Assembly: GCF_028993555.1 (NCBI RefSeq)
Contig: NZ_CP118611.1
Span: 1,482,001 to 1,546,000, forward strand
DNA length: 64,000 nt
Origin: Ensifer adhaerens
Lineage (GTDB): Bacteria > Pseudomonadota > Alphaproteobacteria > Rhizobiales > Rhizobiaceae
Reading direction: 5' to 3'
Shown here: positions 10,763 to 30,595 of the stretch, piece by piece
How positions within the stretch are numbered: the stretch's first letter is position 1
How the letters are laid out: every line of letters starts with the position of its first letter
Translations under genes and position numbers: made by a program
Notes under the pieces: generated by a model
Databases searched by the model: none
What the model was told of the DNA's origin: nothing
The model's input: only the letters and a program-made list of their open reading frames with translations

Positions 10763-10765
10763 CAA

Positions 10766-12854: not shown

Positions 12855-12874
12855 CGAACTCCCCCTGTCAAAGA

Positions 12875-15800
12875 TTAGGTTTTTTCAAGAAACGGCACAC
12901 GCGCACTGAAGCGTGGTCCGGACTCAACGAACGTGTCCATCGCGAACATATCTCTCAGGGAAACCGGTTCCTTGCGGTAGGCTGCTGGCATGCGACGGTC
13001 GACCTCTTCGACGTAGGCGACGATACGCCCACGGCCGAGGTCATGGATTATTGACCTTTCGAGCTTGACGACGATCGACCAAAGAAGGTCAGCGTTGGCG
13101 AGAGTTGGTTCGACTTCAAAATGAAAGTCCTCATCTTTCGATCGACTGACGGTCCCCTGCGCCCCCTCGATCTTAGCCGGAACGCTCTCCAAGGGAGTAC
13201 GAACAAGGCCGTTCTCCTCGTCATCAGCTTCGTGAAACAACGAAAGCTTCATCTTGGGCCGTCGAAGGGTGTCAAAATTGGCAGCCCATTGTTCGTCGGC
13301 GTCCGGCAGCAACTCGGGAAAGATGTCCTTGATGTCACGTGATCCAAGCCCCCTCACCTCGATTGAAAATTGGCGAATTGTGGCAGGCACGTTTTCAAAG
13401 AGCTCGATGATGTCGACTTGACGATTCGCCAGGAGCTGCATGGTTACGCTCGCGGGCTCGGACACCATAAGGTCGCGAGAGATCGACTGGCTCTGATATC
13501 GCACGACCCCGAACCGGACGAAGGGCTCGGAGGCGCGGTTGGGTTTGAGATCCACGTCCACGTACCACTCTTCGCGGTCGAGATCGAAGCACGGGACGTA
13601 GGTCAGCAGGCAAACCGCAAGGTACTCCGGAGCTGGCCCGTCGGCGGCGCGAACAGGCATCAGTGCCGTCGATACGATTTCTGGACGATGCGGGCCTGTC
13701 CCGAGATGCTTCAGATCCTCAAAGGCCTTCGGTGGAATGAAGTTCGCCTCTTGCTCCGTGGGATCCTTTCGAATTGGATCGCCACCCCACCGCGTTATGA
13801 AGCCGCCGCCAACACCAAGGTCAGAATCCTGAAAATCCCTGAGATAGAGCTTCCGCCCGTTCACGTTTATCTTATCCGCATCAACATCACCATTGTTGAG
13901 GGCCTCAAAGCCCGGCGGCCACAATACTATGCCAAGCCGCTCGCCTTCTCCGGAGCTGAACCATCCACGCCCCAGGTACAGCCTCGTGAGGGCGGTGCGT
14001 GTCACAAAGTGGTTCTCGCCGTCGGACCGGCGCGAGATGATGAAGGACGGCTCGGGTCGTCGTAGGTCGGGGACGGCCGGCCGAGCTGTGGACTTCATCC
14101 AGACTTCTGCAAAGTCGGTGTTCATGACAGCCTGATCCGTTCGCCTGAGTGGTTGGCGACGATAGAGCAGCTGCTCCTTACCCTGCAGATATCTCGGAGC
14201 GGTTTCGAACGCTGCCGCGTGTCTTGAGGTCGAAACAAGCTTCAAGGTGAGTTTGCGAGCTCGAGTATCCTTGAACGCATGAGGCAGCTCCGTCTTCAAC
14301 ACGCGCGTACGCCGCGTGACGTCCTTCGCGTTTTGTTCCATCGCCAATTGCGACGTGATCGGGACCGAGACGGCGGCAGCGGCAAAGAGTGGCGCTAGTT
14401 CGATCTGGGTGAATCGTCCGGCACTCGCACCAAACACCGGCTCGCCTGGGTTCTTTCCCGATGGAGTTGAGTGAAACTCCACGTTGGCCGGGGCCTCACA
14501 GGCTTTCCCGGTGTTCACAGGCAAAATGAGTTCTCCCACTGCGCCGTGAGTAGGCAAGTTTCCAATATTTAGGAGGGTTACCGACTGGCGGGGCAACGTG
14601 ACGACGCCATCCGGGGCAACTCTGAAACCGACGACGTCCGTCGCGGAAACATAGGCCCGCTCGCCATCTTTGGTAGTCATCATCGGCCAGCGCCCGGAGC
14701 GTTGCGAGATGGAGCTGCGCGACCGCTCGCGGGTGTCCAACGGCGCCCCGTCGGTCGCCACGGTCTCCGCCACGATTTGGACGCTGTCGACAAGCGCGAG
14801 GTCGACCTCGACCTGGCCCTGCAGAAACAGACCCGTCGCGTTCACCTTGTCTTGTAGGTCCGGTTCAGCCACCTCTTCACAAGGGAGATCATAGTCGTGC
14901 CGGATGGCTTGAAGCGATGTCTTGTCACGCCATCTGGCAGGAAGAGCCGGCTTGTTTACGGCGTGGCACACCCTCAGCGTCGTGACCGCGGCGATCTCCT
15001 CGATTGGCCACTGGGTTTTCATGGCCTTTAGGAGCTTGGTAGCAACATCGTCGACCACGGCCTGCGATGGAACGATCATACCGCCAAGTCCGGTCATTTG
15101 CTGACATTCGACACCTGGAGAACAAGCTTCAGCGATCTTTCCGCCGCAGATCGAACTCAGAAGCGCGAGCTTCTTGGGATCCGCCCCTGCTGCCTTCAAT
15201 TGCAGCGAAATTGTTTCCGGAACGGAGAAACGTCTGGCCAGCATCGCGGCGTCAGGTAAACAAGCGACTTCCAGATCATAGTCTTCGCCAGGATGAAGGG
15301 TGATCAGTACATGACTTACGCGCGTGCCCCGTTTCGGCTTCGTTGATTTGAGCACCCCGGTCTCGTCAATCCATGTTGGTCCCGCCACGACGGCGATATC
15401 GCCGATCTTCGTCGGATGTGCTGACCTCACTGTCTTCGAACTGCCGACAGCTTTCCCTACGCTGACGACGAGCGGCAGCACATCCGGATATCCTTGTGCG
15501 GTGAACGCGGGCGCGTCGATCCAATCTTCGAGATAGCGGTCGCCGCCCCGGATCCGGGCTCTTACCGTGTAGTGCGCGATCGCTGGATCCGGCAAATATC
15601 CAAGTCCGCCCTTCGGCGTCGTGTTGGTGCCGCCGGGTTCGAAGACTGGAATGCCCCGCTCTTTCAGATCCTCTGCAGAGCTGGCAACCGTACGGCGATA
15701 GACCGCGCCTTCGGGATCGAAGGTATCTCTTTTGCTGGTGATCGCGATGGGAAAGCCGCTGGATCGTGGCGCTTGAGTCGGTGACTGCGGGACGTGCATA

Positions 15801-16439
15801 GGTCTCGGTGTGAAGGATACGTCCAGCAGCCCGCCCCGACGAGTGCGGGACACGTCTCCCTTGTCAAACTTCCCGTGACGCACGACCAGGTCGAGCGCGG
15901 CTTCGGGAGCGACTAGGATGCGCATCGTACTCTCAGGCGTGGTGCGAGAGCTGCCCTCGACGTATTCACCTCGGATATCGTTGGCGTCGCTTATTGTCCC
16001 AAGAGGCGACGACGTGTCGTTCCACGACCGCACGATCGCCTGATCGGCCTGCTGATACCCCATGTGCAATGATTGGCTCTCGGCAAGATGCTTCGGCAAC
16101 ATCAGGACCGGGGCAGCTATGCTCTCGTGGCGAAGGAAACGGCGGGGGTGCGCCAGTTGCCCCGCAGCAAGCGGGAGTACGCTCAGTTCGTCGGTGGTGG
16201 CGGTCGTGTTTTCGTCGGAAGCGTCGGGCGCTCCCCCTCCGACGAACATGGAACGGCAGCGGCAAACGTAGGGGTAGCCGAATCTCAGTGGTGCGACGCG
16301 CAGTGGCTTTTCGTCAGGAAGTGAGATCGTACGATCGAACGGTAGAAAGCTCGGCAAGTCGACGCTCCCGGCGCCGGCATCGGTCAAGGCCCCCGCTGGC
16401 GTGCCGTCCCAGAGGAAGATCGCTTCCTCCGCGACTGCT
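12875..16439 (-). pseudogene. Very large unknown protein gene, 5' end removed by IS21-family element
   Basis: The open frame gives about 1,188 residues of native sequence before it enters the insertion sequence. It stays open inside the element to 16660, so a chimeric protein is possible. I do not recognise the family. The visible sequence is largely beta-type and non-repetitive, with few hydrophobic stretches. Segments include HAGTQAVAEEAIFLWDG at the junction, RARIRGGDRYLEDWIDAP, CSPGVECQQMTG, YLGRGWFSSGEGERLGIVLW, WYVDVDLKPNRASEPFVRFG and a C-terminus ending in ARVPFLEKT. It has no clear enzyme motif and may be a structural or surface protein. The first native residues are missing because the IS boundary at 16440 cuts the frame. 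The sequence on the far side of the IS does not continue it, so DNA was probably lost. It is followed by the TatA-like and matrixin genes. Confidence 0.7.
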
Positions 16440-16538
16440 TGTGTTCCGGCGTGCAAATTTGACCCCCTTGGCGGGGTAATCGGCGTCCAATTTTGACCCC
16501 CCTCAGATTTCATCTGACCATCCGGCTTTTTGCGGCGG

Positions 16539-18050
16539 ATGGAGCGGGAGTTGAAGCGAGTGGATACGATTGCGCGTGTTCGACGGGCCTTCCATGTGCA
16601 GGGCTGGTCGATGAAGAAGATCGTCCGGGAACTCCACGTGTCGCGCAACACGGTACGCAAGATACTGCGTTCCGATGAGACCGATTTTACCTATGCACGA
16701 GAACGGCAACCGTTACCGCGGATCGGAGCCTGGAAGGCTGAGATCGAGCGGTTTCTGACAGCCAATGAGGGCAAGCCGTCGCGTGAACGGCTGACGCTGA
16801 TCCGGATTTACGAGGAGGTTCGGGCACTCGGCTACGATGGCAGTTATGACGCGATCCGGCGATATGCCAAGACCTGGGCGAAGAACCGCGGAGCCGTGAC
16901 GGCGGAAGCCTATGTACCGCTCTACTACGCGCCAGGTGAGGCTTACCAGTTCGACTGGAGCCACGAGATCATTCTGATCAACGGCGTGACGACGACCGTG
17001 AAGGTGGCGCATGTCCGGCTCTGCCACAGCCGGATGATGTTCGTCCGGGCCTACATGCGCGAGAGCCAGGAGATGGTGTTCGACGCGCACGACAAGGCAT
17101 TCGCCTTCTTCCATGGCACCTGCACGCGCGGCATCTACGACAACATGAAGACGGCAGTCGAAGCCGTGTTCGTTGGAAAGGAACGACAATACAATCGCCG
17201 TTTTCTGCAGATGTGCAGCCATTATCTGGTTCACCCGGTCGCCTGCACGCCCGCATCTGGGTGGGAGAAGGGACAGGTCGAGAACCAGGTTGGTCTCGTG
17301 CGTGAACGCTTCTTCACCCCGCGACTGCGGGTCAAAAGCCTGGAAGAGCTGAACGTCTGGCTGCTCGATAAGTGCATCGCCTACGCCAAGGCTCACCGCC
17401 ATCCCGAGCAGACCGAGCGGATGATCTGGCAGATGTTCGAGGCGGAGCGCGCCAGCCTGGTGCACTATGTCGGGCCGTTCGACGGTTTCCACTGCGTTCC
17501 GGCCTCGGTGTCGAAGACCTGCACCGTCCGCTTCGACAACAACAAATACTCCGTCCTCTCGACGGCGGTCGGCCGCCCTGTCGAGATTCATGCCTACGCC
17601 GAGAAGATTGTGATCCGGCAGGATGGCGTGAACGTCGGTGAACATCCTCGTTGCTTTGGCCGTGGCGAGACGGTCTACGATCCCTGGCATTATGTCCCTG
17701 TTCTGGCTCGCAAACCCGGAGCTTTGCGCAACGGAGCGCCGTTCCGGGAATGGGTCTTGCCCGCAGCGATGGAGAAAGTGCGCCGGCGGCTGAAGAGCGT
17801 CCATGACGGTGATCGGCAAATGGTCACCATCCTCGGCTGCGTTCCCACCGACGGTCTGGCGGCCGTCGATGCTGCCTGCCAGGAGGCTTTGGAGCACGGC
17901 GTCTGCTCGGCCCCGGTGATCCTCAACATTTTGGCCCGGAGCCGTGATCCGGCTCCGACCGCAACCCTGCAAACCCCGGATGCGCTGCGGTTGACCCATG
18001 AGCCGGTCGCCGACTGCGCCCGCTATGACAGCCTCAGGAGGGCAAGCTGA
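16539..18050 (+). CDS. istA: IS21 transposase IstA
   Basis: A DDE transposase of 503 residues. The N-terminal helix-turn-helix is at residues 24-43 ([20 protein letters not shown]). The catalytic core has [12 protein letters not shown] (first Asp at 139), [10 protein letters not shown] and [19 protein letters not shown] (acidic third residue). The start is the ATG at 16539. A TTG at 16530 is possible but has no better ribosome site. The stop overlaps the istB start (TGATG), so the two are coupled. It appears intact. Confidence 0.95.
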
Positions 18051-18784
18051 TGGAACGCACACAGGTTCTCGAACTGATGAGTACGCTGAAGCTCTTTGGA
18101 ATGCGTAGCGCTTACGACGAGGTCATGGGCAACGGCATCAAGCGGCAGCACGAACCACCCCGCATCGTCGGCGATCTCCTGCAGTCGGAGATCGCCGAGA
18201 AGCAGGCTCGCTCCATTCGCTACCAGCTCAGCATCGCCAAGCTGCCGCTCGCCAAGGACATCGACGACTTCGACTTCACCAATACGCCGGTCAATGAATC
18301 CCTGGTGCGGGAGCTGTCGACCGGCACCTTCGTCGCTGATCAGCGCAACGTCGTCCTCGTCGGCGGCACGGGAACCGGAAAGAGCCACCTCGCCATTGCA
18401 ATTGCCCGTGCACTGATCCGCAACGGAACACGCGGGCGCTTCTTCAATGTCGTCGACCTGGTCAATCGGCTGGAAACGGAAACGCGCAGCGGCAAGCAGG
18501 GGCGGACGGCCGACTATCTCAACCGTCTCGACTTCATCATCCTCGATGAACTCGGCTATCTGCCATTTGCTCAGGCCGGTGGCCAACTGCTGTTCCATCT
18601 GATCAGTAGGCTCTACGAGCGCACCTCGATCATCGTCACCACGAACCTGGCCTTTGGAGAATGGCCGACCGTGTTCGGCGATGCCAAAATGACTACGGCG
18701 CTCCTCGACCGCCTGACCCACCACTGCGAGATCGTCGAAACCGGGAACGAGTCCTGGCGCTTCAAGAACCGCCCTCAAAGCTAA
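18050..18784 (+). CDS. istB: IS21 helper ATPase IstB
   Basis: An AAA+ ATPase of 244 residues that helps IstA choose and engage target DNA. Walker A is [13 protein letters not shown] (about residues 104-116) and Walker B is [14 protein letters not shown] (about residues 160-173). The N-terminal zone [18 protein letters not shown] is the usual IstB start. The length is normal and no damage is seen. Confidence 0.95.
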
Positions 18785-18876
18785 AGCCGAAGATGCCCGT
18801 CACCCGCACTTGGCCTACCCTCTGCATCCCCGGCCAGCGCCGGGCAGGCCAAGCGCTGATCTACACCACCAGGGGG

Positions 18877-19041
18877 TCAAAATTGGATGCCGATAAGGGG
18901 TGAATTTTGGACGCTGATTGACAGTTCGAACATGACTCGGAGAAAATGACCGTCTTGCTCTACCTCACAGGCCAGCCCCAAGGTCTCCAGATGCGGCCCC
19001 AGAGCTTCCTCAATTTCCAGCATCCGGTTCTTGATAAACAT
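18877..19041 (-). pseudogene. Gene start truncated by the IS21-family right end
   Basis: From an ATG at 19041 behind GAGGGTGCTGC, the frame reads MFIKNRMLEIEEALGPHLET and LGLACEVEQDGHFLRVMFEL. It then enters the IS end and stops after 13-14 foreign codons. About 40 native residues remain. The family is not recognised. The frame does not resemble the start expected for the large gene on the other side of the IS, so the two are probably remnants of different genes joined by a deletion. Confidence 0.5.
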
Positions 19042-19594
19042 GCAGCACCCTCGGCTTTCGTTTCGTCGAGGTGATCGTCATGCGAGGACATGCATGGAAC
19101 AACAACGGCCGGGCTCCCGCACTACCCGCCCAAGTGCGCGCCAAAAATCGGGAGGATTCGGGAGGCTCCTGCAGATCGGTTTGACCGCCATCGCCCTGTC
19201 GGGACTGTCGAAGCGCAGAATTCGCCGCGTTAACGATAATCAGATTTTTTTAAGACTCGATTTGACGCCCGCCCAAAACGGCGTCGAAATAGGTGCGAAA
19301 GACCGCCAATGGAGTCCATCTATGCGAACGACCCGAATACAAGGCCCGTCCCGGGCGATGGACGTCTAGTCATAGGATGGCGCCGGTCAGGCGCCTATTG
19401 GCCACCCGATCTCCTTCCCCCACGCGGAACGAAACAGGTACGTTTTCAGCGATGTGAAATTCGCTTTGGCGTGTTGTACCAAAACACTCACGGGTTGCAC
19501 CCAAGCGTGCACCCCTCGAATCCCGAGTGACAAGCGTCAGATCGTTGGCCTACAGTTTTGGCGTCAACGGGCAGACGCCCTGCATGGAGTAGAC
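19042..19594. other. 553-base stretch without a supportable gene
   Basis: The stretch lies between the truncated gene start and the first small gene before tnsA. It has a T-rich patch at 19245-19252 and an imperfect dyad GTGTT/AACAC at 19471-19487. Short open frames are present with no recognisable domain. This is where the left end of the Tn7-like element might be expected, but I could not find a TGT-headed end matching the right end. Confidence 0.4.
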
Positions 19595-19987
19595 ATGACA
19601 GTTCCCATCGCAGATCTTGAATGCCACCCCTCGCTGACCGCGTGGATGGAAAGCCGTTTCGGAACCTGCTGCAACAACATGGTCGTCCTTATGATGATTG
19701 CAGTTGTCGGCTGCGCAGACAAGCACGATCTGGACGTTGAAGCGCATCATATCGCGCTTGTCCGGAAAATCGTCGGGATCGCCAAGGCCTCCCGACGCCC
19801 ACAACGCATCCCCACTTTCGATGAATTTGCAGTCTTGCTGCGCGACTACAAGGGGATGCTATTGATCCGCGAAGTCCGGTGGACGGGCGGTACGCTCGTC
19901 CCGGCGCAAGCCGAAAAGAAAATCATCGAGGCGATGACGTCTCACGACCAGGCGGCGGCAGTCGCCTGCATAGGCAGCGCCGCTTAA
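19595..19987 (+). CDS. Hypothetical protein, 130 residues
   Basis: The frame starts MTVPIADLECHPSLTAWMES behind GGAG and includes CCNNMVVLMMIAVVGCADK, then HIALVRKIVGIAKASRRPQR, FDEFAVLLRDYKGMLLIREV and AEKKIIEAMTSHDQAAAVAC. I do not recognise the family. The cysteine pair and the hydrophobic VVLMMIAVVG stretch are notable but do not prove a membrane segment. It is the first of three small co-directional genes upstream of tnsA and may be transposon cargo or an old resident gene. Confidence 0.5.
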   Translation: MTVPIADLECHPSLTAWMESRFGTCCNNMVVLMMIAVVGCADKHDLDVEAHHIALVRKIVGIAKASRRPQRIPTFDEFAVLLRDYKGMLLIREVRWTGGTLVPAQAEKKIIEAMTSHDQAAAVACIGSAA

Positions 19988-20180
19988 GAGCCGCTCGCCG
20001 CACCCAAGCACCAACCAACAACAACCGATAATCACGAGGTCTGCCATTTCGCAGAGCGAGAACCCGTGCGCGCTTTTCTGGTCACTCTTTCTCTTTGTGA
20101 GCCAGCTTCGACGCCCACCCGTCTCGCCTGACGTCGGCCGCCCTCGTGAACCCGAGATCAATCGACGCAAGGAGTCCTCT

Positions 20181-20387
20181 ATGCGCGACCCCATCAACAG
20201 CCTCTTTCGCAACTACGGCCTGTCAGAACTCGACGAAGACCTGGGTCTCTGCGACCCCGACGACCTGATCCACGTCGAGTTCCCCGAGCCGCGCTCGGTC
20301 AAGCGCCGCATGAAATCCCCGGCAGCGCGCTCCATTCACGCGAGCGGCGCTTCCTCTGCCGGCGGGCGTCCTCGCAGCCACCCCTAA
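20181..20387 (+). CDS. Small hypothetical protein, 68 residues
   Basis: The frame starts MRDPINSLFRNYGLSELDED behind AAGGAGTCCTCT, an excellent ribosome site. The first half is acidic (LDEDLGLCDPDDLIHVEFPE), while the second half is basic and Ser/Ala/Gly-rich. No family is recognised. It lies between the 130-residue gene and the 175-residue gene on the same strand. Confidence 0.5.
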   Translation: MRDPINSLFRNYGLSELDEDLGLCDPDDLIHVEFPEPRSVKRRMKSPAARSIHASGASSAGGRPRSHP

Positions 20388-20619
20388 GAAGCGCCAGCAC
20401 CAGGCGCGCGGACAGTGATCGCTGCCCGCCGCCCGTTCATGCACTCTTCGTCAGGAATGACAAGGCATGCCGTTCATCTTTCTACGGTCCGCCATGCGCC
20501 GCATCACGCGGAATCGCGCGCTCATAATATGCCGGATGCTCAAACACTCGGTCCTTTAGGACCAAGTCGGCTCCGCGCGGAACACTCAAAATTTTGGTTC
20601 AATTGGAAAGGGTCACAAG

Positions 20620-21147
20620 ATGACTTCCTGCAACGCCATTCCTCGCCTTCTCACCATGTCCGATCTCACCTCCGTCTACGCGTCGCTGAACCGACGCGGG
20701 CTGGACGACGAATCCTTCGCCACTGCGTTTCACTTCGCGCTCGAGATGGCGGAAAGCGATCACCGCGGGATCGACGAGGCTTACCTGGACTATTTTGAGC
20801 ACGTCGACTTCGAAGAAGGCGCCCATCTTTATTCGCGCCGGCCTCAGCTCGAGCTCTGCTGCGTCGACACGTTCATCGAAATCGCGGTCGACATCGTGAC
20901 GAAATGCATCACGCACCTGGTCGAGGAGGCCGACGCCGAAGCCGTCCAGACGGTTGCTGCACCTACTCCGATGAGAAAAATCACGTCGCTCCGCGCGGTC
21001 CTGCTCGGACTTCTTGCAAAAGGCGCCGGGCGCCGGAGGCGCCTTCCAGCACGATCTTCACTGAACAACGGCGGCAAGGCGGGGACCAAGAACCCGCGTG
21101 TGCGTGCCGTACCCTCGCGGGCACGTGCGGCAGCGACGGCATTCTGA
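20620..21147 (+). CDS. Hypothetical protein, 175 residues
   Basis: The frame starts MTSCNAIPRLLTMSDLTSVY behind AAAGGGTCACAAG. Residues 13-105 look like a compact helical domain (NRRGLDDESFATAFHFALEM, HRGIDEAYLDYFEHVDFEEG, CVDTFIEIAVDIVTKCITHL). The last 45 residues are Arg/Ala-rich and may not be native coding sequence. I do not recognise the family. It ends 127 bases before tnsA on the same strand. Confidence 0.5.
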   Translation: MTSCNAIPRLLTMSDLTSVYASLNRRGLDDESFATAFHFALEMAESDHRGIDEAYLDYFEHVDFEEGAHLYSRRPQLELCCVDTFIEIAVDIVTKCITHLVEEADAEAVQTVAAPTPMRKITSLRAVLLGLLAKGAGRRRRLPARSSLNNGGKAGTKNPRVRAVPSRARAAATAF

Positions 21148-21274
21148 TCCGCCGTTCTTCCGGCATTCGGCGAGCAACGCCCGCGCTGCGGGCCTGGCAC
21201 GACGGTCCAACACCATCGCCACCGTTGCGGCCTCCGGGTCGCAGGAACAACCGTGTCCACTGAAAGGACAGGAC

Positions 21275-22108
21275 ATGAACGCACTTCAAATTCTTCGATG
21301 CATGAAAGAGGAAGAAGCCAGAGCAGGCCTGCCAGTCAACGCTAATCGTGGCTTGAGACTCGTCCCCGACCACGCCACGTCCGGTCGCCTGCTCGATGTC
21401 GGGGGCAGTACTTCAGACTGCGGTGCCGAGCCCGATCCATGGTCCGAGGTCTGGGTACCGACGGCATTTTCGACCGGCACACGCCAGCCGACGCCTCGCA
21501 GCAAGGGCCATAGCCGAGGTTGGGTCGTAGACCCTGCCGCGAACCGGGCGATCGGCTTTTCCAGCACGCACGAGATGCGTCTGGCTGCGATGCTGCTCGC
21601 CAATCGCAACGTCGTGGAAGTGGAGGACCAGCCTGCGGCCGTCTCCTACCGCGGTGCCGACGGCAAGCGTCATCACCACACGTTCGACTACCGGGCGACC
21701 TACAGAAACGGGCGACGTGTGGCTATCGCGGTAAAGCCGCGCTCGGCCGTCGTGAAAAGCGGTATCCGGGACGTGCTCAAGCGCGTCCGTCCGGTGTTGG
21801 GCAGCTTCGCACACGAGGCTGTCCTTCTGACAGACACCCAGATCACGATGGCCCGGGGCCGGAATGCCCTCAGCATCCTGCGCGCGCGGCGCGCCCGCAA
21901 TGAAGAGGACTGCGCCCGTATGCGGAACCTATTTCGGCGCGTCCATGGGTCCGTCCACGCGGATCATATCGCAGAGCAATTTGGAAACAGGGCGGCCGGA
22001 AAGAACGCCATCTGGTGCCTGATCTACGACGGGTTCCTGCAGCTCGCAGAGCCCGACCGCAAATTTATCGACGCGCCCTTCGTGGCGAAAGTCGCGACAG
22101 TTGGTTGA
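21275..22108 (+). CDS. tnsA: TnsA-like heteromeric transposase endonuclease subunit
   Basis: In Tn7, TnsA cuts the 5' ends of the transposon so that movement is cut-and-paste. The protein has 277 residues from the ATG at 21275, behind AAAGGACAGGAC. The restriction-enzyme-like nuclease residues are visible: Glu100 (FSSTHEMRLAAML), Asp138 (HHTFDYRATY) and Lys154 (VAIAVKPRS), with spacing as in TnsA. The C-terminal part (residues 200-277) with NEEDCARMRNLFRRVHGSVH resembles the winged-helix region that contacts TnsC. The N-terminal 90 residues are poorly conserved. It is followed after 11 bases by tnsB, so the module is probably one operon. It appears intact. Confidence 0.85.
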   Translation: MNALQILRCMKEEEARAGLPVNANRGLRLVPDHATSGRLLDVGGSTSDCGAEPDPWSEVWVPTAFSTGTRQPTPRSKGHSRGWVVDPAANRAIGFSSTHEMRLAAMLLANRNVVEVEDQPAAVSYRGADGKRHHHTFDYRATYRNGRRVAIAVKPRSAVVKSGIRDVLKRVRPVLGSFAHEAVLLTDTQITMARGRNALSILRARRARNEEDCARMRNLFRRVHGSVHADHIAEQFGNRAAGKNAIWCLIYDGFLQLAEPDRKFIDAPFVAKVATVG

Positions 22109-22119
22109 AGGAGACACGC

Positions 22120-24384
22120 ATGAACGAGATCACTCCCATTCCACCGCGGAACAACGACCAGGGATCGGAACACGTACCGATCTATCGGTTCGGCCCCTAT
22201 GCAAAGCTCGTCTATCGGGGCAGCGACTACCAGCCCGTTTCAGCCAACCTGGCCGGGCACGTGCTCCGTCGCATGGACGGAAGCAACCTCTACGAAGCGT
22301 TCAGCCACAAACAGATCGCCCAAATGCTAGCCGAAACGGATGACCCACTGGTGGTCCATCCCTCAGCCTATGCTCCGGGTGCAGAGAAGCGCCACGCCGG
22401 CGGCGCTGGCCTCCTCTCCGCGCTCACGAACCAGCAGCAGAACGTTGTTGTCTGGAAAGAGAAGTGGTGCCGACACTGGATCAGGCTCGAGGCACGCGAT
22501 CCGAACATCAAGCGAAGCGACGAGTGCATGCGCCTGCAGATGTATCTGATCGCCCAGGAGTTGGCTCTCGAACAACACACGGAAATCAAACGCACGACCT
22601 ACAAGTCCAGGAAGAACCGGACCGAGCGAATGCCCGGCCCGAGGACCCTTCGTCGTTGGCTGCGTGAATACGAAGACGCAGGCTATGATCCTATCGTTTT
22701 CGTCGAGAAGTACCCGAACACGAAGCCAAGTCCGCTCGACGCCCAGGTCCAGCAGATCCTTTCCACCTACGCGCGGATGTATGCGTCCGACACCCAGCCA
22801 CAAATGAACGCCCTATACGACAACATGGTCGGGGCTATCGAAGCGGAGAATACGCGCCGCAGTTCTCTCGACATGAAATCGCTCAGTGTTCCGTGCCTGC
22901 GCACCTTCCAGAACCGCGTGAATGCTCTCCCGCAATCGTACATCGACCTGGGGCGCCTTGGGCCGGAAGCGGCGGCGCGCAAGCACGCGATCGTCCAACG
23001 GGGGGTGGAGGCCGTCCGTCCGCTGGAGCGCGTCGAAACGGACGAGTGGCAAGTCGATAGCCATGTACTACAGGCACACAGCGAATTCTGGAAGAAATTG
23101 CCGCCGAAGCTGAAGAAGCAGGTCAAGCGTATCCGCCTCTGGGCCACTGCCATCATCGACGTGGCGTCGAAATGCATCGTCGCGCTCCGCGTCCACAGAG
23201 AACCGCCATCGATGAAGTCGGCGATCATGGCGCTCGAGCTCGTAACGCGAGACAAGACCGACATCGCCCGCAGGATCGGCTGCCGTACCCCCTGGGACAT
23301 GTGCGGCACACCGGAGACCGTCGCGGCAGACTCCGCGACTTGGTACACGAGCGCCGCTTTTCGCGTCGTCGTGAACGACCTTGGCTCGACCCTGTTCCTT
23401 CCCCCTGCCGGCAAGCCGGCGATGCGGGGAACGATCGAACGCGCCTTCCGCACCTTCGGAAGCAAGGCGTTGCAGTACTTCTCGGGACGTACGTGGGGCT
23501 CCATCGAGAAGAAGGGGGACTACGATTCCGAGGCCCAGGCGAGCCTGACAGTCGACCTGACGTCGGAGGTGCTCACTCGCTTCGTCGTCGACGTCTATCA
23601 TAATGAGCCTCACGCCGGTCTGGGAGGGGAGACCCCGCGCAACGCCTGGGCCAGGCTGAACGCCGAACACGGGGTCTTGCCCCCGCCCACCGGCGATCGT
23701 CGTCGGCACATCTTCGGAATCAATTCGACACGAAAGGTCGGACGCGAAGGCATCCGCTTCCTGGGTATCCACTACCAGTCGCATTTCATCCAAAAGCTAC
23801 GTCGGGACGACCCGCGTGTGCGGTACACCATTCGTGTCGATCGTCACGATCTTGGCGAGATCTCCCTGAGACACGGAGAAGGATGGGTTCGCGTGCCCGC
23901 CGTCTACGACGAGTTCAAGGGGATGAGCATCTGGACCTGGATGGCGGCCTGCGAGCGCCATCGGCTACTCAACGCGGAAAACGCCAAACTCGCTCGTGAG
24001 ACGCTCCGGAAAACCAAGGAGTGGCTGCAGAGCCAAGGTCAAATGGCACGGCTGGAGGCGGAGCTCGGAAGTGGCTTCGTCACCGACGAGGATTTCGAGC
24101 GCTTCGAGAAGAAACTCGACCACGCGGTCAACCTCTCCGAAAAGAACGCCGCCGTTCCGGACGACTACGAAGCCGACTGGGGACCGTCGCCACAGTTCTT
24201 CGACATGATGGGCATCAAGCCGGTCGAGTTCATCGAGAACTCCGAAGCCGCGAAGACGGCCGCCGCCCCCGTCGAGACAGGGCCGCCGATCCCGGAGATC
24301 GCTGAAGCCGACGACGAGACCGACCCGGAAGATGACGAGAGCTATGGCTCGCACTTCCTCAACGCCTCCGAATTCGACAACTAA
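22120..24384 (+). CDS. tnsB: TnsB-like DDE transposase
   Basis: The integrase-fold transposase that joins the 3' transposon ends to target DNA. It has 754 residues, slightly longer than Tn7 TnsB. The catalytic triad candidates are Asp308 (RVETDEWQVDSH), Asp404 (ETVAADSATWYTS) and Glu440 (PAMRGTIERAFRTFGSKAL). Helix-turn-helix DNA-end binding regions precede it (RTERMPGPRTLRRWLREYED around residues 167-186). A beta-barrel and an acidic C-terminal tail follow; the last 40 residues are rich in Glu and Asp (EADDETDPEDDESYG), like the tail of TnsB that recruits TnsC. The start at 22120 follows GAAGGAGACACGC. No internal stops are present. Confidence 0.88.
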   Translation: MNEITPIPPRNNDQGSEHVPIYRFGPYAKLVYRGSDYQPVSANLAGHVLRRMDGSNLYEAFSHKQIAQMLAETDDPLVVHPSAYAPGAEKRHAGGAGLLSALTNQQQNVVVWKEKWCRHWIRLEARDPNIKRSDECMRLQMYLIAQELALEQHTEIKRTTYKSRKNRTERMPGPRTLRRWLREYEDAGYDPIVFVEKYPNTKPSPLDAQVQQILSTYARMYASDTQPQMNALYDNMVGAIEAENTRRSSLDMKSLSVPCLRTFQNRVNALPQSYIDLGRLGPEAAARKHAIVQRGVEAVRPLERVETDEWQVDSHVLQAHSEFWKKLPPKLKKQVKRIRLWATAIIDVASKCIVALRVHREPPSMKSAIMALELVTRDKTDIARRIGCRTPWDMCGTPETVAADSATWYTSAAFRVVVNDLGSTLFLPPAGKPAMRGTIERAFRTFGSKALQYFSGRTWGSIEKKGDYDSEAQASLTVDLTSEVLTRFVVDVYHNEPHAGLGGETPRNAWARLNAEHGVLPPPTGDRRRHIFGINSTRKVGREGIRFLGIHYQSHFIQKLRRDDPRVRYTIRVDRHDLGEISLRHGEGWVRVPAVYDEFKGMSIWTWMAACERHRLLNAENAKLARETLRKTKEWLQSQGQMARLEAELGSGFVTDEDFERFEKKLDHAVNLSEKNAAVPDDYEADWGPSPQFFDMMGIKPVEFIENSEAAKTAAAPVETGPPIPEIAEADDETDPEDDESYGSHFLNASEFDN

Positions 24385-24395
24385 GGAAGGCACCA

Positions 24396-25472
24396 ATGTC
24401 CCAGAATTACGATCAGGCAGAAGTCGTCGCCCGCGTGAGGGCGACGCTCGATCCCACTCATCTTGTGAAGGCAGAACGTATCGCGGAGATGAACTCGCGC
24501 TACATCGGGCTGGCCCGAGACAAGGTCGTCGCAGAGGCCCTGCACGCGCTGGTGGCGAGCATCGCCACTGTCGATGCCGAGAACATCGCCAGGCCGGACA
24601 AACGCCGTATCGTCGCCATCTGCGGCGACTCCGGTTCCGGCAAGACCCGGGCGCTCATGGAGCATACGAGCAGAATCCCAGCCATGCAGCCGTATGTCGA
24701 CAAGGACGGGGTCCAAGTCTGGCCGTTCCTGAACTTCAATGGGCCCTCTCCGTCTACGCCGCGCCTGGTTGCGTTCACCGGCTTGGAGAAGCTCGGATAC
24801 CCGATCAAGACGACGCTCGCGGAGCATCAGGCATGGGCGCTCTTTCAGAAAATGCTGAAGGTACACCGCGTCAACTTCGTGATGATCGACGAGGCGCAGC
24901 ACGCAGTCGACACGGCCGACGTCAATATGACCACCAAGATCGGCAACGCTTTCAAGAACCTGGTTCAGATGCCTGACTGGCCGGTCCGTCTGATCCTGGC
25001 CGGCGTGGCGCCGCTTCCAAGCTTCCTCGCCCGCAAGCAGCTTTACAATCGCCGCACGGTGATCCGCTTCGACAAGATCAAGGGCAATGCCGTGAAGGAT
25101 ACGATCCCAATGGTCCTCGCAAAGGTGATTGTCGATCACGCGGATCTGGCCGTCGGCGAAGGCCTGGCGGGCGATTTCCCGAAGCGACTTGCGTTCGCGT
25201 GCGACGGGGACTTCGGCTCGATCGTCCAGATGGTCCGCGGCGCCGCCGAGCTTGCGATCCTCGAAGACGCCGCAACCGTGGACCTGAAGCACTTCGCGCG
25301 CGTTTACGCCTCCTATTCAGGCTGCGCGGCCGGGGAGAACATCTTCAAGGTGGACCGCTGGGCGGAGATGGTGCCCTACACCGCGTTCATGCGCGACGAC
25401 GACCACGCTTGGGAGAAGGCGCATTTCGAGGCGAAGAGGCGCAAGCCGACTAAGTTCGGGGTGCGGCCGTGA
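24396..25472 (+). CDS. tnsC: TnsC/TniB-like AAA+ ATPase, transposition regulator
   Basis: An ATPase of 358 residues that links the target selector to the transposase. Walker A is GDSGSGKT at residues 77-84 and Walker B is FVMIDEAQH with Asp165-Glu166. Sensor-type residues follow in RLILAGVAPLPSFL. The length fits the short TnsC/TniB proteins of CRISPR-associated and Tn5053-type elements and is much shorter than the 555 residues of Tn7 TnsC. The start has AAGGAAGGCACC upstream and lies 11 bases after tnsB. It should form filaments on target DNA, recruited by one of the two TniQ proteins (inference from the family). Confidence 0.87.
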   Translation: MSQNYDQAEVVARVRATLDPTHLVKAERIAEMNSRYIGLARDKVVAEALHALVASIATVDAENIARPDKRRIVAICGDSGSGKTRALMEHTSRIPAMQPYVDKDGVQVWPFLNFNGPSPSTPRLVAFTGLEKLGYPIKTTLAEHQAWALFQKMLKVHRVNFVMIDEAQHAVDTADVNMTTKIGNAFKNLVQMPDWPVRLILAGVAPLPSFLARKQLYNRRTVIRFDKIKGNAVKDTIPMVLAKVIVDHADLAVGEGLAGDFPKRLAFACDGDFGSIVQMVRGAAELAILEDAATVDLKHFARVYASYSGCAAGENIFKVDRWAEMVPYTAFMRDDDHAWEKAHFEAKRRKPTKFGVRP

Positions 25473-25553
25473 CGCGCCCTTTCGATGGTTTCTTGCCCAC
25501 CACACCGCGCGCAAGCTTGTCAGTGCGTAGAGTTACTCGAGGAGGCGGTAAAA

Positions 25554-25820
25554 ATGTCGATCGCAGGCGCGTCAGAACTTCTCCTGAGTATCGCCCCTCT
25601 GAACGACGCCTCCAACGCCCTCTCCGATGCGGACAAGCGAGCTTTCGATCATTGTTTGCATATTGGCGAGCGCGCAACCGAGTTCCATCTTGACCATGAG
25701 CTCGATATCGTCACGAAGATCGTTTTCTCACCGCTCAATCCGTCTGCCCAGATCATAGGTCTCGTTCAGCACCCGCTTCATACGGAGGACTTTCCTTCGG
25801 AGATGGCGCATCTCAGGTAG
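25554..25820 (+). CDS. Small protein between tnsC and tniQ, 88 residues, unknown
   Basis: The ATG at 25554 has a very strong GGAGGCGG site. The sequence is MSIAGASELLLSIAPLNDAS, NALSDADKRAFDHCLHIGER, ATEFHLDHELDIVTKIVFSP, LNPSAQIIGLVQHPLHTEDF and a short tail. It has no recognisable domain and no signal or membrane segment. It is in the same direction and position as a module gene, 81 bases after tnsC and 264 bases before the first tniQ. It may be an accessory factor, an anti-transposition regulator or an unrelated insertion. Confidence 0.55.
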   Translation: MSIAGASELLLSIAPLNDASNALSDADKRAFDHCLHIGERATEFHLDHELDIVTKIVFSPLNPSAQIIGLVQHPLHTEDFPSEMAHLR

Positions 25821-26084
25821 CTGGGTTCTCGATCGGTTCGCCAGAAAGTCGAGACTGGTAGCTTCTGCTGTCATGTTTCGTAGATCTCCAATCCGGAGAC
25901 TTTCTGACGCTTCCGCAAGCCACAAACCAGCCCACGAACTCGTGGCCAGATCATCCACCCTTCAACCGCAACGTAGTGGTTGAACGCTGCCGCATGCGCG
26001 CGTCGCAAACTGGGCGTTCAGGACGCAGCCTGCGCAGTCTTTTTCGCTCGTAACCACTCGACCTCAGATTTTCCCAGGAGAACC

Positions 26085-27965
26085 ATGACTCGACTGTCAT
26101 TGCGACTTCCGTTCCACTCCGATGAAACACTTATCAGCTACTGCTCGCGGACTGCTGTGGCGCTCGGCCACACCAACTCGCGAACCTTTGCCTGCCATAT
26201 GGGTTTCACCCTAGAGGGCCTGGCCCATGGCAATCCTGCCGACGTCGAAACCTTCGGCTACATCGCCAACCTGGACTCCAGAGCGCTCAAAGCCGCCGTG
26301 GTGAAAAGGGAGGGCGACTTTACTTTTATAGGAGGAGAGCGCCTCACCAGGCTCTACGTCCGACGGAGCCCATTGAGGTTCTGTCCCCATTGCTTGGATC
26401 ACGACGAAATCAACGGTCCAGGGCGGTCAGGCGTGCGTGCATACGGGCGTAGGAATTGGCTTGTCGCCCTCATTCGCTGCTGCCCGATCCATGGCACCAA
26501 GATTGTCACTTCGGACATCGCGGGCACCACGCACGTCAATGACTTCATGGTCAGGCTCGCCTGGGAGCGGCCTAATATGCGGAGTCACCGAATGCACAGC
26601 ACTCCGGCAAAACCTACAAAACTGGAACAGTACGTCGCCCGTCGTCTCCAAGGCGTGCCGTCAGGCTACGCCTTCCTCGATGCTATGCCTCTCCACGTCG
26701 TCGCGCACATGACCGAGTTGGTCGGTACGGTACACATCAAGGGCATCTTGGAGCCGGTTCGACGGGAGCATTATTTCGACTACGAGGATGCCGGTTTCGA
26801 AATCATGTCCGCGGGCGAGGAGTCCTTCCGGAAATTCCTGCGCTCGCTTCACGCTAACTTTCGCAGGTCGTCGATGCACTCGCTCGCTGGCGTTTACGGT
26901 CGGCTCTACACCGGGGTGCGGCTGAAGGATCGCTCATATGATAGAGTACGCGCCGTGATGCGCGACGTCGCCTTGGCGGAACTGCCATTCGCTCCAGGAG
27001 ACGACGTCTTCGGCCCAGTGGAAACCACTAGATGGCATTCGATCCCTAGCCTTTCCAGCAGGTTCGGAATGGGCACAAAAAGGATGGAGTCGCTACTGCG
27101 CGCAAATGGGCTCCTGCCAGCGAAACCAGAGCCCGGACGAGCGAACGCCTTTGTACACGTAGAGGCGGCTGCCGATTTTCTGAAGGATCTCGAAACCGCT
27201 GTTTCGAGCCCTGCGGCGGCGGCATACCTCCGTATGCCCCAGCCGGCGCTGCATCAACTTCTGGCGGCGGGCCAAATCAAAAGTCACCACGTCAGGAAGG
27301 GTCCTAGGGCCCTTGAGCCCTATTTCTCGATCCTGGAACTCGACCGCTTCGTGGACCGGCTTCGGCAGAGTGTGACCACCGATGGCTACCCGCAGGGCGC
27401 GGTAGATTTGAGGACCGCCCCGCGTCGGGGCAGAACCAACGCGAGCCGGGTGATCTCCCTCATTTTCAATGGAGACCTGAAGACCGTGGCTTGGGATTCT
27501 TCCAAAACCGGCTACGGCGCCGTTCTGGTTGTACCCCGCGAGGTCCGAGAGGCTCTACGCCGCCCTGTGATCTTTGAAGGTTTCACAGTACCGCAGGCTC
27601 GAAAGCAGCTTCGCGCGGCCGGCGAAACGATCCTCGATCTCATTCGTCATGGCTATCTTGAAGCGTCGATCGCCCATCCTCGGCCAACCAAAAGGACGCC
27701 ACCTTTGATCCCGGCCGCCAAGTTGCAACAGTTTAAGGCCGAGTATGAAGCAGTGTCTTTCATTGCCCAAAAATTCCGCACGACGCCACGACGGCTGGGT
27801 ATGATCCTTCGGAGTCTCGGAGTGCTGCCCGCCTTCGATCCGGCGCTTGTCCGCACGACCTACTACAGGCGCAAAGAGATCGAAGTTCACGCGGAACAAA
27901 TAGCCAAGCTGACGCCACTACCGCCGCGCGTGCGACCATCTCGACGGCGCCCCTCTCACTCATAG
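26085..27965 (+). CDS. tniQ: TniQ-family protein 1 (long form, 626 residues)
   Basis: TniQ/TnsD proteins pick the target site for Tn7-like transposons. The N-terminal TniQ domain spans about residues 1-160: LRLPFHSDETLISYCSRTAV, then a zinc-binding pair at LRFCPHCLDHDE and IRCCPIHGTKIV. The central part (residues 160-430) is weakly conserved. The C-terminal 200 residues contain several helix-turn-helix-like units (MPQPALHQLLAAGQIKSHHV, FTVPQARKQLRAAGETILDL, VSFIAQKFRTTPRRLGMILR) that could read DNA sequence, as in TnsD. The start at 26085 has CAGGAGAACC upstream. The N-terminal domain is clearly related to the second TniQ just downstream, but this copy is over 110 residues longer at its C-terminus. 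Confidence 0.88.
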   Translation: MTRLSLRLPFHSDETLISYCSRTAVALGHTNSRTFACHMGFTLEGLAHGNPADVETFGYIANLDSRALKAAVVKREGDFTFIGGERLTRLYVRRSPLRFCPHCLDHDEINGPGRSGVRAYGRRNWLVALIRCCPIHGTKIVTSDIAGTTHVNDFMVRLAWERPNMRSHRMHSTPAKPTKLEQYVARRLQGVPSGYAFLDAMPLHVVAHMTELVGTVHIKGILEPVRREHYFDYEDAGFEIMSAGEESFRKFLRSLHANFRRSSMHSLAGVYGRLYTGVRLKDRSYDRVRAVMRDVALAELPFAPGDDVFGPVETTRWHSIPSLSSRFGMGTKRMESLLRANGLLPAKPEPGRANAFVHVEAAADFLKDLETAVSSPAAAAYLRMPQPALHQLLAAGQIKSHHVRKGPRALEPYFSILELDRFVDRLRQSVTTDGYPQGAVDLRTAPRRGRTNASRVISLIFNGDLKTVAWDSSKTGYGAVLVVPREVREALRRPVIFEGFTVPQARKQLRAAGETILDLIRHGYLEASIAHPRPTKRTPPLIPAAKLQQFKAEYEAVSFIAQKFRTTPRRLGMILRSLGVLPAFDPALVRTTYYRRKEIEVHAEQIAKLTPLPPRVRPSRRRPSHS

Positions 27966-28015
27966 AGCTGAGCGCTTCCTCTTCATCTGCTTGTTGAACT
28001 CGTAGGGAGAAATCC

Positions 28016-29545
28016 TTGAGCGGTCTTTCACTTACCGTGCCTCTTCACAGCGACGAGACGATCGCGAGTTACTGCTCGCGTACAGCTGCGGTCAACGGGC
28101 TGCCCAAAGCCGCTGTTTTCGCGTCGCACCTTGGCTTCAGCTTCAGAGGACTTGCCAACGGCAATCGCGCCGACGTCGATACATTCGCAGACGCTGTCGG
28201 GCTGTCGTACGACGAGCTACGGCATGCGCTGATGGTCACCGACGGCACGCGCCTTTGGATCGGTGGCGAATGCGTGCCGCGAACACAGCTTCAAAGGCAA
28301 CGCCTACGCTTCTGTCCACATTGCGTTGTCGAAGACGAGACGATCGGCACCGGCCGTCGCGGCACGCGGGCGTATGCCCGGGTCAACTGGTCAGTCTCCG
28401 CCATCCGCACATGCCTGCTCCATCGAACGAAGCTCGTCACCTCAGAGAAGACGTCCCGTAGCGCAGTCTACGACTTCACCGCCCGTCTGAACTGGGAGCG
28501 TCCGACAATGCAAGCCCACGTCGAGGACGCGGAGGCGCAGGAACCATCCCGGTTAGAACACTATGTCGCCGGCCGGCTTGTGGGCGCTGCCTCCGCCGGT
28601 GCACTTCTGGACGTGATGCCGCTCTATGCTGCGATCAAGACCACCGAGTGGGTCGGAGCCGCCGCCCTATTCGGCACGAAGATCAGCTTTGAGGAAGTCA
28701 CGGATGCACAGTGGCACCAGGCGGGAAAGGCCGGGTTCGATATCATGTGCGAGGGCGAAAGCAGCGTCCGAAGCTTCTTTGCTTCGCTTTGCTCGGACTA
28801 CTTCTCAAACAGAGTGTCGATGCATCCGGCTGCCGTTTTCGGCAAGCTCTATCGGCTTTTGAAGTCGCGTGAAAGTGATCCAGGTTTCGAGTGCGTCCGC
28901 CAAATCTGCCGCGAGGTAGCGGTCACCCAGCTCCCCTACGGTCCGGGCGACGAGGTGTTCGCGCCGGTGTTGGAGCGGAATTGGCATACCGTTGGGACGG
29001 CCGCAAAGGCACACGGACTTGCTGTCCCGGAAGTCCGAACTTTGTTTCGAGCTGGCGGCCTTCTCCCTTCAATCCCTGGCGAGCGCCAGAAGCGCACCCT
29101 TGTGGAAGCGCACATTGCTGACAAGCTGCTTGAGGATGCCAGGAACGCTCTCTCCTTCGGACAGGCAAGGGAGCTCCTTGGCATGAACATCGAGGACTTC
29201 CGAGCGATGATCGATTTGGGATGTCTAAAGCCGCTACTCACTATTCGTGACGGTGGCCACATGATCCCGTACTTCGCGAGAACGGAACTGGGGCGTTTCC
29301 AAAGCGATCTGAGAGACCGTGTGACGATGGAAAGCTTCTCGCCCGGGATGACGAGCATCGGCGATGCCGCTCGAAGGGCAAGGTGCACGGTCAAAGACGT
29401 CATCAAGCTCCTGTTCGACCGCAAACTTCAAAAAGTCGGATTGAACGAACGCGCCCCTGGATTTGCCGGGCTCCTGGTCGATGCCGCCGAAGTTCTCGAA
29501 AGAACTCGAACCTCGATACTCAACGTATTCGATCCAATCGAGTGA
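28016..29545 (+). CDS. tniQ: TniQ-family protein 2 (short form, 509 residues)
   Basis: A second target-selector-type protein, starting at a TTG at 28016 behind TAGGGAGA, 50 bases after the first. The TniQ domain reads SLTVPLHSDETIASYCSRTA, LRFCPHCVVEDE and IRTCLLHRTKLV. The second zinc half has Cys-Leu-Leu-His where the first protein has Cys-Pro-Ile-His. The C-terminal half has helix-turn-helix-like pieces (LSFGQARELLGMNIEDFRAM and SIGDAARRARCTVKDVIKLL). It lacks the extra C-terminal units of protein 1. Two TniQ proteins in one element usually mean two targeting routes, as in type I-B CRISPR-associated Tn7 elements, but no cas gene is visible here. Confidence 0.87.
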   Translation: MSGLSLTVPLHSDETIASYCSRTAAVNGLPKAAVFASHLGFSFRGLANGNRADVDTFADAVGLSYDELRHALMVTDGTRLWIGGECVPRTQLQRQRLRFCPHCVVEDETIGTGRRGTRAYARVNWSVSAIRTCLLHRTKLVTSEKTSRSAVYDFTARLNWERPTMQAHVEDAEAQEPSRLEHYVAGRLVGAASAGALLDVMPLYAAIKTTEWVGAAALFGTKISFEEVTDAQWHQAGKAGFDIMCEGESSVRSFFASLCSDYFSNRVSMHPAAVFGKLYRLLKSRESDPGFECVRQICREVAVTQLPYGPGDEVFAPVLERNWHTVGTAAKAHGLAVPEVRTLFRAGGLLPSIPGERQKRTLVEAHIADKLLEDARNALSFGQARELLGMNIEDFRAMIDLGCLKPLLTIRDGGHMIPYFARTELGRFQSDLRDRVTMESFSPGMTSIGDAARRARCTVKDVIKLLFDRKLQKVGLNERAPGFAGLLVDAAEVLERTRTSILNVFDPIE

Positions 29546-29633
29546 TCGGTTGGCCATGTCAGCGCTCCTTCGATCCGGCCGTATCGGCGTGAAGAACGCA
29601 TAGGCTCCTTCCCGCCAACCGACTATGCGCAGA

Positions 29634-29656
29634 ACCGGGCTTTGCCCGGTTTTTTT
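29634..29656 (+). terminator. Rho-independent terminator after the second tniQ
   Basis: ACCGGGC - TTT - GCCCGGT followed by six T residues forms a classic intrinsic terminator. It ends the transposition operon about 90 bases after the tniQ stop. Confidence 0.85.
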
Positions 29657-29659
29657 GTG

Positions 29660-29799
29660 CCCAGAATTGTCTGTCACACAGCCAACCTGGGCCATTCTTG
29701 AATGCACTTTGGGACAAATTCGATTACTTGAAACCGCATCAGACACAATTAAATCAATAACTTACAAACATTGTCGGCCAAACATGGCTGCTTTTTACA
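29660..29799. repeat. Putative right end of the Tn7-like element
   Basis: This AT-richer segment ends in TTTTTACA, giving the TGT/ACA terminus of Tn7-like elements (TGTAAAAAGCAGCC when read from the outside). Two loose repeats may be transposase-binding sites. One is ATTGTC followed by GCCAAC and TGG (29667-29690 and 29770-29788). The other is ACAA, then ATT, then ACTT and AAAC (29714-29734 and 29747-29769). The next base begins oxidoreductase coding sequence that matches the family from its second or third codon. Confidence 0.55.
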
Positions 29800-30595
29800 A
29801 GTTCTACTTGTCTATGCTCACCCCGAACCCCGCTCGCTCAACGGCGCGCTACGCGATGTCGCCATCAAGGCGCTTGAAGCCGAGGGACACGAGGTTCGCG
29901 TGACCGACCTCTATGCCGATGAATGGAAGTCGGAAATCGACCGGGCGGACTTCCCCGCCCTTACGTCGGATACCCGGTTCAAGCCTAGCCGCGCTTCGAA
30001 GGAGGCCTTCGCCACCGATACGCTGACCGAAGACGTCAAGGCCGAACAGGAAAAGCTGCTATGGGCCGATACCCTGATCCTGCAGTTTCCGCTGTGGTGG
30101 TATTCGATGCCGGCGATCCTCAAGGGCTGGGTCGACCGTGTTTACGCCTACGGCTTCGCCTATGGCGTCGGCGAACATAGCGACAAGTATTGGGGTAAGC
30201 GTTTTGGCGAGGGGACGCTTGCCGGTAAACGCGCCATGCTCGTCGTGACCACCGGTGGCTGGGAGGAGCACTACTCTTCGCGCGGGGTCAACGGGCCGAT
30301 CGACGACCTTCTGTTCCCGATTAACCATGGCATCCTCTTCTATCCAGGCTATGACGTGCTCCCACCCTTTGTCGCCTACCGGGTGGACGGCCTTGATGAT
30401 GCAGGTTTCGACGAGACCGCCGAGCGGCTGCGGCAACGGATGCGCACTCTTGCCACGACAACACCCATTCCCTATCGCCGGCAAAATGGTGGGGATTATG
30501 TGATCCCGAGCCTGCAGCTTCGCCCGGAGCTCAGCACTCCGGACACACGCAGTTTTGCTCTTCACCTGAATGGTGGGCGCGATAGCGCCGCTTAG
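29771..30595 (+). CDS. NAD(P)H-dependent oxidoreductase (flavodoxin fold), N-terminus replaced by transposon end
   Basis: A flavoprotein of the NQO1/MdaB/KefF group that reduces quinones with NAD(P)H. From 29800 the sequence VLLVYAHPEPRSLNGALRDV is canonical; family members normally begin M-K-V-L. TLILQFPLWWYSMPAILKGW and VDRVYAYGFAYGVGEHSDKY are typical flavin and substrate loops. Here the first 9-10 codons (from a TTG at 29771) lie inside the transposon right end, so the native ATG and promoter are lost. The frame remains open into the element, so a fusion protein could still be made. The gene is convergent with xdhC. Confidence 0.85.
   Translation: MSAKHGCFLQVLLVYAHPEPRSLNGALRDVAIKALEAEGHEVRVTDLYADEWKSEIDRADFPALTSDTRFKPSRASKEAFATDTLTEDVKAEQEKLLWADTLILQFPLWWYSMPAILKGWVDRVYAYGFAYGVGEHSDKYWGKRFGEGTLAGKRAMLVVTTGGWEEHYSSRGVNGPIDDLLFPINHGILFYPGYDVLPPFVAYRVDGLDDAGFDETAERLRQRMRTLATTTPIPYRRQNGGDYVIPSLQLRPELSTPDTRSFALHLNGGRDSAA

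Follow-up and report, generated by a model that had tools for sequence, protein, structure and literature searches.

A 109-kb Tn7-like transposon of Ensifer adhaerens with two TniQ proteins and no CRISPR system found, and its place among rhizobial elements

Why would a Tn7-like transposon in which no CRISPR system is found carry two TniQ-family proteins? The question is raised by a 64,000-nucleotide stretch of DNA from Ensifer adhaerens (contig NZ_CP118611.1, positions 1,482,001 to 1,546,000; hereafter, the window), which holds the right-hand part of a complete Tn7-like transposon with intact machinery, including the genes for TnsA, TnsB, TnsC, and two TniQ proteins (Table 1). The reading favored here, at a probability of about 0.62, is that TniQ1 and TniQ2 would be two TnsD-like selectors, each reading a different DNA site, giving the element two protein-guided routes to its targets.

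The element measures 109,490 bp and lies at G000:C2:1402310-1511799, where G000 is the window's own genome and C2 coordinates are those of the contig. Both junctions were read, as an earlier note on this sequence had proposed; the termini are TGT...ACA within a 24-bp imperfect inverted repeat, and the element is flanked by a 5-bp target duplication. The note had placed the element at window positions 21275 to 29799, and the second of these proved to be the exact right terminus, but the first is only the start of tnsA, and the left terminus lies 79,691 bp to the left of window base 1. A short element of about 8 kb was rejected, as no full copy of the end repeat is present upstream of tnsA. A second, 13-bp end repeat is located at element positions 57-69 and 109378-109390. 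With at most one mismatch, the end pattern had exactly two matches in the window's genome, one per end, and two in G400, the genome of another species of the same genus that carries a sibling element; the control gave none.

The insertion falls in codons 2-4 of a gene encoding an FMN/NAD(P)H oxidoreductase, and the region upstream of that gene is found at a distance of 109 kb on this contig, with its orientation unchanged. When the genus was searched with the right flank, the homology of six relatives began at window position 29799, at the start of the oxidoreductase gene. That start reads ATGAAAGTTCTG in 7 of the 10 relative loci printed and differs by one to three bases in the remaining 3; an eleventh locus (L046 of G216), without the oxidoreductase start, is outside the ten compared. 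Six relatives (L040-L045) were tested from among the 15 other genomes of the genus that were searched, and in all six the flanks adjoin directly, with a 5-base overlap that is exact in five and consistent in L043. The interrupted oxidoreductase frame stays open into the element end (window 29771-30595, with a TTG at 29771), making a fusion start possible.

All five proteins named in the earlier note are present as open reading frames, and the catalytic motifs that it described as intact are in place. In alignments of 11 sequences, the window's included, Glu100 and Asp138 of TnsA and Asp308, Asp404, and Glu440 of TnsB are invariant; position 154 of TnsA, a lysine in the window, is lysine in 7 of the 11 sequences and arginine in 4. 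The Walker motifs of TnsC read ICGDSGSGKT and VMIDEAQH, and the protein is indeed short, its 358 aa comparing with 555 aa for Tn7 in R721 and 302 aa for Tn402 in R751. Comparison of TnsA with solved structures gave chance matches only, and TnsE (PF18623) had no match in the window's genome or in any of 14 control genomes. A sixth frame between tnsC and tniQ1, which can also be read as 25485-25820 (111 aa), had no family match in Pfam, NCBIfam, or PADLOC. The TnsB triad, the position of tnsC beside tnsB, a TniQ with zinc ligands, and the TGT...ACA ends with their 5-bp duplication and empty site together identify the element as Tn7-like, and the Glu, Asp, and Lys of TnsA place it among cut-and-paste, TnsA-bearing elements.

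The TniQ domain (PF06527) was matched above the cut-off in both TniQ proteins, as expected from the earlier note, and these were the only two TniQ matches in the whole genome (E ≤ 0.001). Zinc ligands are present, as in a selector of the TniQ/TnsD type, and the sequence of TniQ1 had no match among solved structures. Both proteins exceed 500 aa and carry rows of small modules that are predicted to bind DNA. If the element is active, TnsA and TnsB would excise it and TnsB would join it to the target, with TnsC connecting TnsA and TnsB to a target selector; TniQ1 and TniQ2 would be two such selectors, the core of each recruiting TnsC and its own winged-helix-like row binding DNA. Since both proteins are long and have their own module rows, a second route would need no guide RNA, and direct reading of DNA is the likelier. 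The earlier note had reasoned that the second route, lacking CRISPR, would be something else; no CRISPR was found, but the inference loses force with two such proteins at hand.

The absence of CRISPR bears on a further possibility, in which one of the TniQ proteins serves as an adaptor to a selector, RNA guided or protein, that is unlinked or unknown, as the short TniQ does in CRISPR-associated transposons (CAST) and in Tn6022. Adaptors of this bridging kind are known (sections of PMC10293859), but no CRISPR-like array of three or more copies is present in the whole element (a lone repeat-spacer unit is outside the scan's reach), and a PADLOC scan of 79 of the 95 called proteins, 59 of these at E ≤ 1e-15, found no Cas protein (the 16 others are 5 tns/tniQ proteins, 4 IS21 frames, and 7 others). 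With the long C-terminal module rows of both TniQ proteins, these results make a bridging role very improbable.

It is also conceivable, though unlikely, that a single TniQ does the targeting, probably TniQ1 with its five modules, TniQ2 being a truncated duplicate that is either in decay or a regulator of the first. Modules 4 and 5 are missing from TniQ2 in the alignment and are kept by TniQ1, P0100, G400_Qa, P0095, and P0096, as would be expected of such a remnant. However, P0094, a relative from Sinorhizobium meliloti that is 57% identical to TniQ2 and 538 aa long, is shortened at almost the same place with its zinc ligands intact, and the short TniQ2-type form therefore seems to have persisted through long divergence.

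The trees of TnsB and TnsC, a phylogeny that had been suggested earlier, unite the window with G400 (support values of 100/100 for TnsB and 99/95 for TnsC) and nest this pair within an 11-row rhizobial clade (100/100 and 97/99); Tn402 is kept apart, on long branches. The other nine rows of the clade yielded one TniQ each, in 12-21 kb of DNA per locus, and of 23 loci, that of G400 (L086) alone has two TniQ places, those of L072 and L073 being one gene in pieces. In the broad group, TnsC relatives (E ≤ 1e-20) were found in 45 of 394 genomes of the family, the window's own included. At E ≤ 1e-40, TniQ2 had matches in 8 of 397 genomes of the order; the window's genome is one of the eight, and the matches in the remaining seven are 27-31% identical.

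In the tree of TniQ cores, TniQ1 groups with P0100 of Bradyrhizobium sp. BRP14 (type A; 100/100), TniQ2 with P0094 (type B; 98/95), and P0097 of S. meliloti with P0098 of BRP14 (type C; 100/100), the last two being 92% identical in the core and 84% after it. G400_Qa, P0095, and P0096 form a B-like group, and G400_Qb stands apart. The same longest contig, of 280,616 bp, is reported for P0094, P0097, and a TnsC (P0002) that is 80% identical to the window's, and one of 873,332 bp is reported for both P0098 and P0100, for which no TnsC matched in this way to BRP14 came up. The pairs thus appear to be A with B in the window, B with C in S. meliloti, A with C in BRP14, and B-like with Qb in G400, where the S. 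meliloti and BRP14 pairings are drawn solely from equal longest-contig size and organism name. From these groupings, TniQ pairs look to have been reassorted between elements; the pattern could also have arisen without swapping, if an ancestor had three TniQ genes and different ones were lost. Joint action of the two TniQ proteins on one composite site would fit the adjacency of their genes in the window and in G400, and two further relatives that appear to hold two on one contig, but partners appear to have been exchanged, as would be expected of independent selectors more than of a fixed pair. For P0096 and P0095 (contigs of 93,288 and 90,167 bp), a single TniQ was recovered, although a distant second could escape, and joint action is accordingly rated as improbable.

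The earlier note had suggested a search of rhizobial genomes for the same gene order and a comparison of insertion sites; the site of the sibling element is a different one. Its tnsA, tnsB, and tnsC products are 65, 59, and 66% identical to those of the window and are accompanied by two tandem TniQ genes. End repeats at C2:1915589 and C2:2276123 face each other, 360,535 bp end to end, and TCGTG flanks each end of the element (G400:C2:1915589-2276123). Nine loci were tested out of 15 other genomes with a match: three, one of them in the window's own genome, are contiguous with an exact 5-base overlap, five have adjacent flanks with diverged bases between them, and the ninth gave no right flank. 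The site lies upstream of a gene that we take to encode a DUF808 protein, and no attachment site shared with the window's element was found by eye. In both elements the operon points outward, stopping 254 bp (window) and about 200 bp (G400) from the near element end, with the cargo behind tnsA.

GC content along the G400 element is even, at 0.557-0.598 per 20-kb step (the last step being shorter). Among 16 genus genomes, an 8-kb piece from its middle had listed matches of only 64-74% identity, reaching about 3.3 kb at most; for an 8-kb cargo piece of the window's element, no listed match exceeded about 325 bp. Both islands are thus inserted accessory DNA, and either may have grown after insertion through other elements.

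Several observations weigh against two selectors with separate DNA sites. The two insertion sites with DNA in the dual-TniQ clade differ and so provide no evidence of site specificity; TniQ2, without its last two modules, may be a copy that is partly worn; the element sits at the start of a gene, unlike the harmless downstream position of Tn7; and the winged-helix matches are weak and could reflect no more than a common arrangement.

Tn7 has TGT/ACA ends and makes a 5-bp duplication, like the element in the window, and its copy on the E. coli plasmid R721 has an operon of the same tnsA-tnsB-tnsC-tnsD type. Here there are two TniQ proteins, and the insertion is in an oxidoreductase gene and not at glmS. 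In the annotated plasmid records from which the layouts of Tn7 (R721) and Tn402 (R751) were taken, tnsA is the outermost tns gene of Tn7, with resistance cargo beyond tnsE, whereas here the last tniQ is outermost and tnsA faces the cargo, so that the layout is the reverse of that of Tn7. Tn5053/Tn402 elements likewise have a short TnsC/TniB and a TniQ, but the R751 copy, Tn402, carries a recombinase gene and lacks an annotated tnsA; tnsA is intact here. Tn6022 has a short TniQ with TnsF and targets comM; the site here is not comM, and both TniQ proteins exceed 500 aa. The 5-bp duplication of Tn7 is also described in a section of PMC11406308. CAST elements of types I-B and I-D and Tn7017 have two TniQ proteins, one of them long (parts of PMC10293859 and PMC11406308), but in the window's element no cas gene or array was found and neither TniQ is core-only.

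The closest counterparts in print are the dual elements of Faure et al. 2023 (PMC10293859), which, according to sections of that paper, have two tandem TniQ-domain genes beside tnsABC and include a branch mostly without Cascade; those sections do not state the share of dual loci without CRISPR. They count tandem genes at 1,048 loci and a lone tniQ/tnsD at 2,905, so carrying two TniQ proteins is in itself nothing unusual, and a dual TniQ without CRISPR is by itself not new. There, one protein usually exceeds 400 aa with a substantially smaller partner, and dual sets arose several times through duplication in place, distant relatives seldom being paired; here, both proteins exceed 500 aa and partner types appear mixed. 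The present clade agrees with these sections on tandem loci and in-place duplication and departs from them on the rarity of distant partners if reassortment holds. The suggestion of an undescribed rhizobial family is borne out in part, in that the close group is rhizobial and no description of this dual-TniQ clade was found in the open-licence literature (survey tables not covered), but the broad group is large. What is new is a dual-selector rhizobial clade nested among single-TniQ elements, with apparently reassorted pairs and a 360,535-bp sibling with empty sites.

Selectors of this build, in which the TnsC-recruiting core stays constant and the module row varies, occur in different pairings on related elements and offer a tractable test case for how new targets are gained. 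Should every row recognize a site of its own, the modules would amount to a protein-based code for aiming large DNA insertions, independent of CRISPR. A broader proposal, held tentatively and at somewhat under even odds, is that rhizobial Tn7-like elements form a mix-and-match system. Elements with a common type of transposase would exchange, in pairs, interchangeable TnsD-like selectors, each built from a TniQ core and an alterable row of winged-helix modules, and this machinery would move metabolic and defense islands as large as 360 kb. According to sections of PMC8649781, the longest Tn7-like element in that survey, which examined 125 kb on either side of tnsB, is 140 kb, and the reports it cites extend to 117 kb; islands as large as those proposed would exceed this maximum. 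The G400 element has ends that match, a target duplication, and empty sites that are exact in three genomes; it shows that Tn7-like ends can bound islands beyond that reach, and large catabolic islands in rhizobial replicons may therefore be overlooked transposons.

The single-TniQ alphaproteobacterial elements L033-L038 and L066-L070, the 11 loci printed for a reading of the tniQ flank by eye, belong to the same TnsB/TnsC clade but have one TniQ found. In six of them (L033-L035, L066, L067, and L069), both a terminator and repeats resembling element ends follow the tniQ stop codon at a distance of no more than about 250 bp; behind tniQ, a terminator is seen in L068 and L070 and nothing clear in L036-L038. 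The sequence right after these features in L035 presumably represents the inside of an efflux-pump gene. With up to five mismatches, the end pattern had no match in 18 of 20 siblings outside the genus (L033-L038 and L066-L079) and scattered weak matches in L070 and L075. No site common to the single-TniQ siblings was found, tblastx of the downstream genes giving scattered pairs. A tRNA-Ala(CGC) gene lies 1.1 and 3.2 kb behind tniQ in the single-TniQ loci L077 and L088, respectively, and is perhaps the attachment gene of these elements. In the sister group L033-L038, TniQ is core-only (297-311 aa, with no long C-terminal part), and a tblastx comparison for a further conserved gene upstream of tnsA gave scattered matches. 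Short TniQ proteins in print accompany a separate selector, and none was identified for L033-L038.

Table 1. Features of the element and its insertion site in the window
Feature	Position	Strand	Basis or remark
Part of the 109,490-bp Tn7-like element inside the window	1..29799	.	Other 79,691 bp left of the window, from G000:C2:1402310
IS21-family copy within cargo	16440..18923	.	99.96% identical to second copy at element 17181-19664 (G000:C2:1419490-1421973)
tnsA	21275..22108	+	Open frame; Pfam TnsA-like match slightly below curated cut-off
tnsB, DDE transposase	22120..24384	+	Open frame; Pfam Mu-transposase C-terminal domain
tnsC, AAA+ regulator (TniB-like)	24396..25472	+	Open frame; Pfam TniB/AAA
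Small open frame between tnsC and tniQ1	25554..25820	+	Own gene call
tniQ1, 626 aa, TniQ core and five winged-helix-like modules	26085..27965	+	Modules counted by eye on predicted model
tniQ2, 509 aa, TniQ core and three modules	28016..29545	+	Modules counted by eye on predicted model
Hairpin and T-run after tniQ2, probable terminator	29633..29656	+	Read from sequence; similar placement in several siblings
Second end repeat AAGAATGGCCCAG, common to left end, likely inner TnsB site (by presumed function)	29687..29699	-	
Right terminal inverted repeat, TGTAAAAAGCAGCCATGTTTGGCC on minus strand	29776..29799	-	Junction reading and end-pattern search
5-bp target duplication AGTTC	29800..29804	.	Other copy at G000:C2:1402305-1402309
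Interrupted FMN/NAD(P)H oxidoreductase gene (Flavodoxin_2)	29800..30595	+	First codons replaced by element end

The window's element contains 95 genes called with our own gene caller. Pfam matched 61 families among 59 cargo proteins, and the 25 listed include ABC transporters, short-chain and zinc dehydrogenases, FGGY kinase, KDPG aldolase, dehydratase, and transhydrogenase; NCBIfam adds glycerol kinase and others (25 of 103 listed). The cargo of G400 is alike in kind, with SAVED, Eco57I-type, and C5-methylase proteins and IS66 transposases in addition (scans of 117 of its 246 listed proteins, each scan listing 25 families). The two elements have in common a helix-turn-helix regulator 1.4 kb from the far end (78-79% DNA identity) and pntAB transhydrogenase genes that are about 90% identical in DNA (L062:6923-9959 and G400 element positions 193405-196446); apart from pntAB, little cargo matches between them. 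No VirB4 ATPase of type IV secretion was found within either element, the genome matches lying elsewhere, and a conjugative element was rejected on this ground; with no transfer ATPase of its own found, the element would spread between cells on its host replicon.

Near the far end of the window's element, L061:6876-13743 and L061:14468-19021 hold genes for a McrBC-like protein, a UvrD-type helicase with a nuclease domain, a PD-(D/E)XK protein, and a 1,518-aa protein with weak AAA similarity, a group that looks like a defense cluster. At E ≤ 1e-15, PADLOC matched a single family besides the helicase among the 59 cargo proteins (mad3, in 5 proteins), and the weak JetC/LmuB matches of one 316-aa protein look like those of a coiled coil. 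Two insertion sequence copies, presumably of the IS21 family from their IstA/IstB-like frames, lie in the same orientation about 76 kb apart within the element, and their target duplications pair up in no combination tested. A minus-strand frame of about 1,258 aa at window positions 12875-16660 had no Pfam or PADLOC match; as its 5' end falls inside the IS21 copy, it is probably a gene cut by that copy.

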